Both the position numbers and the translations under genes were made by a program. The notes below the pieces were generated by a model. The model was given only the letters and a program-made list of their open reading frames with translations. It did no database searches and was not told the origin of the DNA. Positions 32,701 through 41,700 of a stretch of DNA of 64,000 nt are shown here, piece by piece. Position 1 is the first letter of the stretch. Each line of letters begins with the position of its first letter. The stretch comes from Chamaelirium japonicum. Taxonomy: Eukaryota > Streptophyta > Magnoliopsida > Liliales > Melanthiaceae. The stretch lies in contig OX393549.1 in NCBI GenBank assembly GCA_947650365.1, positions 35,434,910 to 35,498,909 of the forward strand, in the 5' to 3' direction.

Positions 32701-35700
32701 CCTCGACGGTTGTGGCGTCGGTTTTGGCTTTTCGGCGGGGGTAGCACCGATGCTCGTGCGACGGTTGTAGCGTCGACTTTCGTTGATGAAGACGGCGGGT
32801 GTAGCACCGATCTTCGTGCGACGGTTGTAGCGTCGGCTTTTGTTGATGAAGACGGCGGGTGTGGCACCGGCTTTAGCACGACGGTTGTAGCGTCGGCTTT
32901 TGGTTGACGAAGGCGGCAGGGGTAGCACCGGCTTCAGGCCTTCTTCTCCCAGCTTTCTTCTTCGTGCGAGGGGTCGATGCCTTGATTGAAGACGACGGGT
33001 ATTGTCGGCTTCGATCTTCTTCTCCGGCCTTTGCTTATGGCGTCTTCGGAGCTGATGAAGATCGTTGGAGCAATCGGGTGATGACGGCTCCGGGTCTTCT
33101 TCTCCACGCTTTCTTCTTCGTGCGAGGAGTCGAAGCTTTGATCTCCGAGTGCAAGGTCTTCACGTTGATGAGGACTTGAAGGGCCAAGGACTCCCGTAGG
33201 ATATGCTTGCCGTGCCTCGTGAAGCCTTCGGTCTTCAAGCGTTGGAGCTCGTCTTTGCAGAGCCTTTTCCTCTTCAGCTTTCGACCTTTGATGCCTTCCC
33301 CCACCCCCTCTATTTATAGGCAAAGGGGGGAGGTTGGGAGAGATATGGCTGAAATCTTTTTGTTTCCTCCAATATCTCCCCCCATAACCATCAAGATATT
33401 GTTCCCTTATTTGGGGAAACAAACTTGATCCCCTCCTTTTTAGGTGGGGTGGTTATGGGCTAGATGTGACTCGATCTTCAAGGATCGAGTTGTTATTTTT
33501 GTTGCACTTTTGGATCGGATGGCGACACAACGTCATCTTGTCCGTTGGATCGAGGGATCGTCGCGGATCTACGGTTGTGTAGACGTCCACGCCACCTCCC
33601 CCCGCATCAAGGCGGTTTTGATTTTTTTTCTCTTTTTCTTTTCTTTTCTTTTTCTTTTTCTTTTCTTTTTTTTCTTTTCCTTTTCTTTTATGGCCGGCCC
33701 CACCTCTTTATGAGGAGGGGGGCACGGTTTTCAAGAGGGGGGGGCCGGTAGGCCCCCCTCTTTGTGTCCGAGTTGCGGGTCCGGTGGGACCCGTTTGCTT
33801 TGGGTCGGGCCATGGCGCGCGAATTGAGTTCGCACGTGGGCCGAGTTCGCACGTGGGCCGTTGTGTGCGGGCCGAGTTTCGCATGTGGGCCGTTGTGTGC
33901 GGGCCGGGTTTCGCGTACGGGCCATTGTGTGCGGGCCGGGTTTCGCATGCGGGCCGTTGTGTGCGGGCCCAAGTTTGCATGCGGGCCGTTGTATGCGGGC
34001 CTAATTTCGCATGTGGGCCGTTGTGTGCGGGCCCAAGTTTCGCATGTGGGCCGTTGTGTGCGGGCCGTTGTGTGCGGGCCTAATTTCGCATGCGGGCCGT
34101 TGTGTGCGGGCCCAAGTTTCGCATGCGGGCCGTTGTGTTCGACCCGAAGGTCATCGAGTGCAAGCCCATTTTTCGTGTAAAAATCGGGTTTGACCCGAAG
34201 GCCGTCGGGTGCGGGCCTATTTTTTTGTGTAAAAATCGGGTTCGACCCGTGGGCTAATTTCGATGCCCACAAGTGCCCCCTCAAGTTCGAGTGCGCCCGC
34301 GGGAAACGCGTAGTGGTTGGACTTGAGTCGCGTATTCGTGTGGGATTAGGTCTTTAAAAGGACCCCTGTTTTTCGTTTCTCTTCATTATCGGCGATTCCC
34401 GACGGCTTGGAGGCGAGAGCTCTGCTAGGGTTTCTTGCTTCGCAACGATGCCGCGGAGGATGAAGATGGTGACGGCATGGGGTTCGCGGAGGAGGGAAGA
34501 TCGCCGGCCCGTGGAGGGCGGAGGGTTGCCGGCGAGGTGATCCTTCTCCTCCTCCTTCTTCTTCTTCTTCCTCTCCTTCTTCTCCCTCTCCTTCTTCGCA
34601 TGGTGCGGGAGGGCGCGACGGGCGCGGCCGGGGGCTGCTGTGGCGGCCGGCGCGCGGGTTCGAGGTGCGGGAGGGCGCGAGTCGAGGGTGCGGCCGGGGG
34701 CTGCTGTGGCGGCCGGCGCACGGGTTGGAGGCGCGGGGCGCGGGTGCAGCACGCGGGGGCCGGAGGTGTGGGCGCAGCGGGCGACGCGGGGGCCGGGGGG
34801 CGACCGGTGCAACAGCGCGCAGGCGCGAGGAGGAGGCCGGGGGCTGTGGGCCGGAGGTGGCCGGTGCAACGGCAGCACGGGCGCGGGGGCCGGAGCGGCG
34901 GGCTTGGCCGGGGACGCGGGCGCAGCGCGCAGGGCGCGGGGGCCGGAGCGCGGGTCGGAGACGGAGGCGCAGGCCAGAGGAGGCGGCGCGGGGGCCGGCG
35001 GCGAGGGCGCAGGGCGGCAGGTCGTGGGGCCGGAGCCGGACGCAGCGGGCGCGGGGCCGGGTCCGCGGGGTGCAGGGCGGCTCGGGGGCCGGAGGCGGCC
35101 GGGGCTGCGGGCGCAGCGCGCGGGGCCGGAGCCGGGCTCGGTCGGAGGCGTGGGGGCCGGCGGCGAGGGCGCAGGGCGGCAGGGCGTGGGGCCGGAGCCG
35201 GGCGTGGAGGCGGCCGGTGCAACAGCACCCCCCCTCCCCTCTGCATGTAAAAGAGATAGAGATGGGGGGGGGGGGTCGTGGTCTTTTGCCATGACCCCCC
35301 CTTTTTCTTGCTTTATTTGCCGAAAGCCCCCCCGTGTTTTAATAGGAGAGAGAGAGAGAGGGGGTTGCGGTTTTTTTTTGCCGCGACCCCCCTCTATTTT
35401 CTTTATTCGCGAAGAGCCCCCCCCCCTGTTATTTTTAACAGGAGAGAGAAGGGGGGGTTCGTGGCTTTTTTGCCATTACCCCCCTCTGTCTTTCTTTATT
35501 TGCTGAAGGCCCCCCAGAGATAAAAAAGGGGAATAAAGGCGGGGTCGTGGCTTTTTGCCATTACCCCCCTCTGTCTTTCTTTATTTGCTGAAGGCCCCCC
35601 CCTTTTGATTTCTTTGTTTCTGTACTCGGGATCCATCTGACTAGGGCTTTGTGTTCTTTCCTTTTCAGGTCTCGTCGTTACGAGAGCTTTCCGAGTTCTG

Positions 35701-38700: not shown

Positions 38701-41700
38701 TTCGAGAAAGCTGAGACGATCGAGAAGTCTTCTGGAGCAGACTTGGCAAAGCAGCGTATCGAGCTGGCGGCGCATCGGGAGCGGGTAGCTTCTCGGTCTT
38801 CTGAGTTGGAGCGCATGGAGGTTACTGACGGCGAGCTGCTCCAACGTCTCAAAGGATTTGATTCGCTTTACTAGCATGTCGCATTTCCTTTTCTTTCTTG
38901 TCATTTCTGCTGAACAGACTTGTAGTTCTGTTTTTCTTTATCCGGTGATAACTTAATATCATGCATCTATTTTTTTTTTGGACTTGTATTCTGGAATGGC
39001 AGAGCTTGGTTGTGTTTTTCTTTTGTTTGGACTGAACCTTTACAGGCTGCCTACGTACCCTACTGAGAGGGATCAAGTCACACGTAGTTCCTTTTTTTTT
39101 TTTTTTTTTTTTTTTTTTTTTTTTTTTGCAAGGGGTGTCGCCTTGCTTTTAGGCATAGTACCTTTTGAGGTACTTGCCGTTGATAGGGCCGAGCGTAAGC
39201 CCTTCTGGCGTGGTGAGAAGATATGCGCCGTTGGAGTAGACCTCTTTGACAACGTGCGGTCCATCCCACTTGGCATCGAACTTCTTTCCTCCTCGATGTG
39301 AAAGGATGATGGGGCGTTTGACTGCGAGCACCAACTCTCCTTCTTGGAAGGATCGAGGGCGAATCCTTTTGTTGAAGGCTCGGGTTAGCCTGGCTTGGTA
39401 GCATTCCAGGCGTTGCTGGGCTTCGAGGCGCTTTTCATCTAGGGCTTCTAATTCCGCTAGGCGAAGTTGAGTGTTGTTGCCGTTGACGAGGCCTTCCTGG
39501 ATGGCTATCCTGAGTGACGGGATCTGGAGTTCAAGTGGGAGGACAGCTTCTACTCCGTATACCAGCGAGTACGGAGTCGCCTGTGTTGGCGTACGAAAAG
39601 AGGTGCGATATGCCCATAGCGCTTCACCCATGCGTTCATGCCAGTCTTTCTTTGACTTTGAGACGACTTTCTCCAAAAGTTTGCAGAGTGTTTTGTTGAA
39701 AGCTTCAGCTAGGCCGTTAGCAGAGGCGTTGTACATGGTTGAACACCTTTGCTTGATATCGAACTTGGCGCAAAATTGGCTGACAGCGGCGTTCTTGAAT
39801 TGCTTCCCGTTGTCCGTAACGATATAGCGAGGGATGCCGTACCAGAAGATGATGTCGTTCTGAATGAAGTTGATGACAGAGTGCCTGGTAACTTCTCGCA
39901 ATGGTACTGCCTCAGCCCACTTGGAGAAGTAATCTGTTGCCGCCAGGATATAAAGATGCTGCTTGGATGACTTGGGTAGCGGACCGACAATATCAAGTCC
40001 CCATCCATCAAAGGGCCATGATGCGATGGTTGGATGCAAAGGTTCCGGAGGCTGACGGATGTAGTCGCCATGCAGCTGGCAAGTGTGGCATCTTTTTGCA
40101 AACTCGAGGGAGTCCTTGATCATAGTGGGCCAGTAGTACCCCATCCGCCTGATGCGAAAGTGCAGCTTTGGACCGGACTGATGTGAGCCACAGATCCCGG
40201 CATGGACTTCTTCTAGTGCTGTTTCTGCTTCTTCTTTTGCAAGACACCTTAGGAGCGCACCATCATAGCTTCGACGGTACAACTCGTTGTTGAAGTGGAA
40301 GAATTTCAGAGATCGCCTGCGAATGTCGACTTTACTCTTTGGATCTTCAGGGAGCTTCCCGTGGACAAGAAAATCTATGAATGGTTGTCTCCAGTCTAGC
40401 TCGTCGGTCACGAAAACGTGCACTGCGTTGACTTGGTCTGGGATCCCCATAGGGAGATCCTCTTCGGTGATTACCATCCTCTTACAGATAGGGATGATGA
40501 GTTGGCTTTTTTCTGGGAACGGAAGTGTAGCCGCTAAATTTGCAAGCGCATCAGCCTGCTGATTGAAGTTTCTGGGGACATGCTGGATTGAAGCATCTTT
40601 GAGTGTACCAAGGAGTTTCAGGGCTCGTATGTGCAATGGCACGAGATCTTCTTTGTTGACCTCGTATGCCCCCAATATTTGTTGGATGACGAGTTGAGAG
40701 TCGCCGAAAATTGTGAGCCCTTGGAGTTTCATATCATTGGCGAGTTCGAGGCCAATGATTAGAGCTTGATATTCCGCCCTATTGTTGGAGCATGGTTCTG
40801 ATAGTAGGAACGAGAAGGGAAGTACTTCATCGTTTGGTGTGACGAATATAACTCCCGCTCCTGCTACATCCTGCCTGGCCGCACCGTCGAAGAACATTTT
40901 CCAAGAAGGGGTGATGTCGATGCAGAATACTTCTTCGTCTGGGAGATCTTCCGATAGTTCCCACTCTGCTGGAAGGGGGTATTCTGCTAGGAAGTCTGCG
41001 AGAGCTTGGCCTTTGACTGCTTTACGAGGGACAAAGGTGATGTCAAACTCAAGGAGGAGCAAAGCCCACTTGGCCAGACGTCCGGAGAGCACTGGTCTCG
41101 ACATGATGTATTTGAGCGGATCGGCTTTTGAGATGAGCCTGATGGCGTGAGCTAACATATAGTGTCGCAGCTTTTTTGTAGCGAAGATGAGCGCCAGACA
41201 GACCTTCTCAATCGGGGAGTAGTTTAGCTCCGCGCCGATGAGAGTGCGGCTCAAATAGTAGCATGCTGTTTCCTTGCCTAGCTCGTTGTCTTGAGCCAGG
41301 AGTGCCCCCAAGGACTGCTCCTGGGCGCTGATGTAAAGGACTAATGGCTTTCCTTGAACTGGTGCTGTCAGAACCGGGGGCTTGAGTAAGTAATCCCTGA
41401 TGTTTTGGAGGGCTTCCTGACAAGCTTCATCCCACTTGAATGCTGCTCCTTTCTTCATGAGGCGACTGAAGGGTCTGCATTTTCCAGCTAAGTTGGCGAT
41501 GAACCTTCTGATATATGCTAGATGGCCCTGGAGACCTCGGAGGTCTCGCACGGTTTTCGGGATCGGCATATTGAGGATAGCATCTATCTTGGTTTGATCT
41601 ATTTCGATACCTCGATGGCGTACGACAAAGCCGAGAAATTTTCCCGAGGAGACCCCAAATGCGCATTTAAGCGGGTTCATGCGGAGTTGGTACCTTCGAA

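Follow-up and report, generated by a model that had tools for sequence, protein, structure and literature searches.

That Tat elements can carry antisense extra open reading frames (ORFs) is long established, but no function has been assigned to them. Whether such a frame is a real gene, and what its protein might do for the element, is the question raised by a 64-kb window of the Chamaelirium japonicum genome (assembly GCA_947650365.1, contig OX393549.1, positions 35,434,910 to 35,498,909). In this window, one complete long terminal repeat (LTR) retrotransposon of the Tat clade of Ty3/gypsy lies on the - strand at 32020-49353, and two long frames run against its gag-pol on the + strand, at 35592-38009 (805 codons, stop to stop) and 37873-38874 (333 codons). 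In 500 random sequences matched to the dinucleotide composition of 35592-38874, the longest frame reached 355 codons, compared with the 805 observed. On balance we favour the reading that these frames form a genuine accessory gene, carried by a young element present in many copies; the gene would be transcribed antisense from its own promoter, lose two introns, and yield a nuclear, trans-acting plant mobile domain (PMD) protein that favours the element.

Gene model and selection on the antisense protein

The first-pass annotation of this DNA, made from the sequence alone, had joined the two + strand frames through an 85-bp GT-AG intron. This junction proved exact and in phase, with one base left over from exon B and two from exon C (Table 1). 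The start proposed at 35649 did not hold, as it is a TTG within the putative intron 1; the gene appears to be bigger, and a putative exon A and intron 1 and a likely promoter had been overlooked. The first ATG of the 805-codon frame occurs only at 36075, although coding constraint covers 35670-36074; a 5' exon is therefore needed, for which exon A is the candidate. The three exons together comprise 3,210 bases, equal to 1,069 codons and a stop.

A search of the plant's own genome with exon B gave 56 places including the window's own, with 56 scored among 5,138 candidates. All 56 listed places were at least 97% identical, so that older copies and sister families fall outside the sample. The 805-codon query frame was free of stops in 20 of the 56 and contained at least one stop in the other 36. 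For the selection analysis, the window was aligned with 6 of the 55 other copies, hand-picked for spread of identity and chromosomes; the query frame was stop-free in five of these six and carried a stop in one. The ratio of nonsynonymous to synonymous differences per site (pN/pS) was pooled, uncorrected, over all 21 pairs, so that shared branches are counted repeatedly.

The results revealed no gapped column in exons A, B or C or in intron 2, while 969 of the 1,581 alignment columns of intron 1 were gapped. Pooled pN/pS was 0.20 in exon A, 0.087 in exon B and 0.295 in exon C, and the corrected values for the six pairs with the window were 0.07-0.50, 0.07-0.16 and 0.16-0.27, respectively. The other two frames of exon A gave 0.69 and 1.83, and the one other frame tested in exon C gave 0.96. 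Codon position 3 held 10 of the 16 variable sites of exon A (p 0.016). The lowest value in the gene (0.027) was found at 36075-36800, where the greater part of the PMD match lies; the same copies gave 0.055 over 1.5 kb of pol. Exon C downstream of its first ATG, at 38251, gave 0.203. These comparisons between copies show purifying selection acting at the level of the protein, strongest in the PMD part, and agree with the earlier claim that the frame is kept open by selection. Since the PMD part is selected as strongly as pol, a role of the protein becomes testable.

The 5' part of the model was assessed in the same copies. Downstream of the putative intron 1 acceptor (35670-36074), pN/pS was 0.165 and 23 of 36 variable sites were at codon position 3 (p 1.7e-4); upstream of it (35592-35666), pN/pS was 0.58 and only 3 of 15 variable sites were at position 3. 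Because the coding signal is present after and absent before this point, constraint appears to start at TTTTCAG/G (35668/35669). A branch-point-like CTGAC lies upstream of this acceptor, and the donor at 34536/34537, which closes exon A, is in phase with it. The donor GT was present in six of the seven copies and the acceptor AG in all seven. Five of the six fetched copies had the TATA-like box CTTTAAAAGG, and the stretch retrieved for the sixth starts downstream of the box. The downstream motif CTAGGGTTT, which resembles a telo-box, was unchanged in all seven. Taken together, sequence and copy comparison provide moderate evidence for the promoter, exon A and intron 1. Within intron 1, 34541-35250 is very GC-rich, has long frames in either strand and differs greatly in length among copies.

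Table 1. Positions of the retrotransposon parts and of the antisense gene model in the window
Feature	Positions	Strand	Remarks
3' LTR	32020..34271	-	2,252 bp; starts TG, ends CA
TATA-like box CTTTAAAAGG	34352..34361	+	putative promoter; just inside 3' LTR
CTAGGGTTT	34425..34433	+	telo-box-like; putative 5' untranslated region
exon A (putative)	34448..34536	+	29 codons from ATG, plus 2 bases; encodes basic N-terminus
intron 1 (putative)	34537..35668	+	1.13 kb, GC-rich; donor GAG/GTGATC, acceptor TTTTCAG/G
exon B	35669..37815	+	plant mobile domain; PKRRK motif from 37674
intron 2	37816..37900	+	85 bp, GT-AG, 44% T
exon C	37901..38874	+	encodes C-terminal part with long predicted helices; includes stop codon
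gag-pol	39149..47035	-	single frame, 2,628 codons stop to stop
5' LTR	47087..49353	-	2,267 bp

Possible function of the PMD protein

The exon B frame matched the PMD profile PF10536 with E 4.9e-16 and 59.3 bits, the cut-off being 34.9, with the best stretch at profile positions 17-162 of 347. The earlier PMD claim was thereby borne out, and the absence of any PMD hit excluded. The PKRRK motif of exon B resembles a nuclear signal, and the protein would be located in the nucleus. Folded alone, exon C gave helices of 77 and 42 residues, with a block predicted local distance difference test (pLDDT) score of 52-82 there, mostly 67-82. These long predicted helices favour the coiled coil proposed in the first-pass annotation, which on this model is likely. 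The acidic region proposed alongside it is weak at best, as no 50-residue block exceeds 22% D/E.

In the reading we favour, transcription would start from a promoter belonging to the gene, close to the inner edge of the 3' LTR, and proceed antisense to the genomic RNA. The pre-mRNA would shed two introns, giving a PMD protein of ~1,069 residues that has a helical C-terminus and contains the motif resembling a nuclear signal. Such a protein would act in trans in the nucleus on host chromatin or RNA machinery to the element's benefit, perhaps as a competitor of the host PMD proteins in the MAIN/MAIL1 silencing pathway. Reverse transcription of the genomic RNA cannot remove the introns, since they run antisense to it. 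The earlier statement that an intron is stable only in antisense orientation was too strong, since Ogre retains an intron on the sense strand (PMC6317226, PMC12786077).

The motif and the domain are compatible with a factor that acts in trans in the nucleus, as is the precedent of Grande gene23, which is antisense, has its own promoter and encodes a nuclear protein (PMC7264820). An anti-silencing role fits what is reported for MAIN and MAIL1, two PMD proteins of the host that take part in silencing and in the control of expression (PMC5418596, PMC7156037), and interference with silencing has been speculated on for PMDs borne by Mutator-like elements (MULEs) (PMC5418596). The window protein shares the PMD with MAIN and MAIL1, which are host PMD-C proteins of Arabidopsis. 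The narrower version of our reading, in which a three-exon anti-silencing gene has its introns protected by antisense orientation and yields, only through host nuclear splicing, a PMD factor that competes with host PMD silencing, is put forward tentatively and is doubtful as a whole. The gene offers a concrete hypothesis in which a PMD borne by a transposable element is linked to silencing by host PMD proteins.

The closest competitor is possible, and almost as likely as an anti-silencing role: the protein may instead serve the retrotransposition cycle itself as an accessory factor, helping the pre-integration complex into the nucleus or acting in the choice of integration sites or in RNA handling. 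The same selection and anatomy data suit this role, and cycle roles have been proposed for proteins of antisense additional ORFs (aORFs) in general (PMC7264820, PMC11963269). It is disfavoured by the work of MAIN and MAIL1 in silencing and expression control, and the present data give no link between the antisense protein and gag or integrase.

Several observations weigh against the reading we favour. The PMD of the window protein is just 26% identical over 95 residues to that of L001, a gene-like host PMD locus, which weakens a simple model of competition. The evidence from exon A comes from just 16 variable sites, and one copy of the seven (L031) has GC in place of the intron 1 donor GT. Upstream of the first ATG in exon C (37903-38250), pN/pS was 0.483, with 8, 9 and 13 variable sites by codon position; constraint in this first third of the exon is weak, and selection there is poorly supported by the copies. 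The heptad pattern of exon C was not significant, being reached by 547 of 5,000 shuffles, so that this side of the coiled-coil claim was not supported, and exon B folded alone was uninformative (mean pLDDT 33.9). On the supporting side, a search of the 1.5-Gb genome with a spliced-junction 20-mer, made without a positive control, found no place with 0 or 1 mismatch. At 2 mismatches it gave 5 places, compared with ~5 reckoned by chance and 1 for a reversed-pattern control. This search therefore gave no intron-less copy, as expected if the introns run opposite to the RNA used as template for reverse transcription.

Probable splicing of intron 2, origin, and the weaker alternatives

Much less probable is a gene without intron 2, in which the 805-codon frame would encode a single protein and exon C would be expressed separately, for instance from the ATG at 38251. 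In the window copy the 805-codon frame is indeed stop-free before 38007, and the weak constraint at 37903-38250 would suit such an arrangement. However, if translation read through the donor, selection against stops beyond it would be expected, and the first 20 of the 36 stop-bearing copies, surveyed at 37780-38009 only, argue otherwise. In 18 of these 20, the unspliced run-on frame was broken by a stop at 37962 or 37977, past the intron; the remaining two (L043 and L044) had their stop outside the surveyed stretch, as did one of the two L056 stops. Exon C was open in its own frame over its first 109 bases in all 20, and GTATGC, CAG and the 85-bp length were likewise retained in all 20. Together with the seven aligned copies, in which 37903-38250 carried neither indel nor stop, the GT, AG and length of intron 2 were constant in 27 of 27 copies. 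Among the seven, the intron varied at 10 of its 85 sites, and its GT and AG were untouched.

These results show that, in the sequences of the examined copies, the splice sites of intron 2 are conserved, from which we infer that the intron is spliced. Broken frames in other copies had been named beforehand as an outcome that would count against the gene: stops do occur in 36 of 56 places, but in 18 of the 20 examined they lie past the donor and outside the spliced reading. The gene model supplies exact splice junctions to seek in RNA reads.

Capture of a host PMD gene by the element, as the first-pass annotation had proposed, is also improbable in any recent sense, and slightly more so. A PMD search of the genome listed 126 matches, from which a comparison set of 30 PMD-hit loci from 29 places (8 with runs of N) was formed. 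One locus, L001, is the kind of source that capture would need, a gene-like, full-length host PMD covering profile positions 1-347 without a stop. However, the matches of the window protein to these 30 loci at E below 0.05 showed no more than 50% identity over 32-95 residues, and no close relative was found among 22 stretches fetched around other PMD hits (7 with runs of N). A plasmid protein search with exon B gave no match, as expected. When pieces of the window's pol were compared with the fetched stretches, L027 was the sole match (RT, 33.7%). On these sequences, recent capture from the examined loci is excluded, other loci lying outside the comparison. Furthermore, gypsy-borne PMDs form clades of their own: PMD-A1 and A2 are encoded only by gypsy elements and are widespread in angiosperms, and transfer in either direction, through co-option by the element or domestication in the host, has been considered (PMC5418596).

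Other elements were noted near some PMD hits. L024 contains an RVT_1 frame, and in L024 and L025 MULE/MuDR transposase domains lie a few kb from the PMD hits, in agreement with the published MULE-borne PMDs. In L009, a PMD frame (E 2.9e-38) lies ~2.5 kb from a copia-type gag frame (2862-3566 and 6056-7000).

Least credible is that the antisense transcript acts as RNA, through double-stranded or small interfering RNA feedback on gag-pol RNA, with the open frame incidental: the transcript would be complementary to the 3' part of the genomic RNA and RNA-level roles of such transcripts have been discussed (PMC7264820), but selection acting on the protein (exon pN/pS 0.09-0.29, an excess at position 3 and no exon indels in the seven copies) rules out a purely RNA role, although the transcript may have an additional RNA effect.

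The host element and its published relatives

The earlier placement of the gene antisense to gag-pol inside an intact Tat element was confirmed, as the element is complete and a GTTAC target site duplication flanks both LTRs on the outer side. The two LTRs differed by 3 mismatches over 2,234 aligned bases, with 51 gap columns, which dates the insertion to about 50,000 years ago at an assumed rate of 1.3e-8 per site and year. A candidate primer site, without a tRNA match, adjoins the 5' LTR, and a candidate purine tract adjoins the 3' LTR. Pfam matches in the gag-pol frame were gag, RT, RT_RNaseH, RVT_3 and integrase; a protease match fell below its cut-off. The order in the pol half was RT_RNaseH (551-652), RVT_3 (704-823) and Integrase_H2C2 (922-977), where we take RVT_3 to be the second RNase H of the element. 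The element thus carries the second RNase H between RNase H and integrase by which the Tat clade is recognized, an archaeal-type enzyme in this position being a trait of Ogre and Retand (PMC6317226).

Within the clade, the element resembles the Retand/Tat elements with an antisense aORF between pol and the 3' LTR (aORF-3R; Grande gene23, RIRE2 and Silene Retand; PMC7264820, PMC11963269). Its region from pol to the 3' LTR (34272-39148) measures 4,877 bp, compared with 2,933-6,566 bp in Retand (PMC11963269), and contains the antisense gene. No TRP28 (PF04195) match was found at E up to 1 in the two antisense frames scanned. By contrast, the Retand survey reports TRP28 in all but 2 of 63 clusters and names no PMD, and a term search of its text found neither "intron" nor "PMD" (PMC11963269). 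The single gag-pol frame and the antisense 3' gene speak for Retand, whereas the PMD does not, nor do LTRs of ~2.25 kb, longer than the survey's 315-1,194 bp (PMC11963269). The element shares a gypsy-encoded PMD and the second RNase H with Ogre and other gypsy elements carrying PMD extra ORFs (PMC6317226, PMC9289625, PMC5418596), but Ogre has two gag-pol frames with an intervening intron, and the window element has one. A PMD is present in 57% of Ogre elements (PMC6317226) and is the most frequent non-canonical domain of plant gypsy elements (PMC9289625).

In the literature searched, to which a 2011 study by Steinbauerova and others on extra ORFs, cited for PMDs in gypsy ORFs, did not belong, we found no antisense multi-exon PMD gene. 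What would be new, within that literature, is the multi-exon antisense PMD gene, as gypsy PMDs and antisense 3' ORFs of Tat elements, known from Retand (PMC11963269), have already been published. Two published surveys called single open frames (getorf; ORF Finder). Such surveys may under-describe genes of this kind, which, if the model is true, would be cut into pieces or lose their first exon.

Repeats were found in and around the element. A run of 36 T at 39092-39127 lies where gag-pol and the antisense gene converge, between their ends. Within gag-pol, a tandem pair of 201-bp copies (93% alike) occupies 44590-44991; 201 is divisible by 3 and the frame is unbroken. Both LTRs contain tandem repeats with a period of ~32 bp, at 33847-34145 and 48896-49227. 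To the left of the element, long AT and GA microsatellites lie at 22201-22352, 27057-27194 and 28418-28511.

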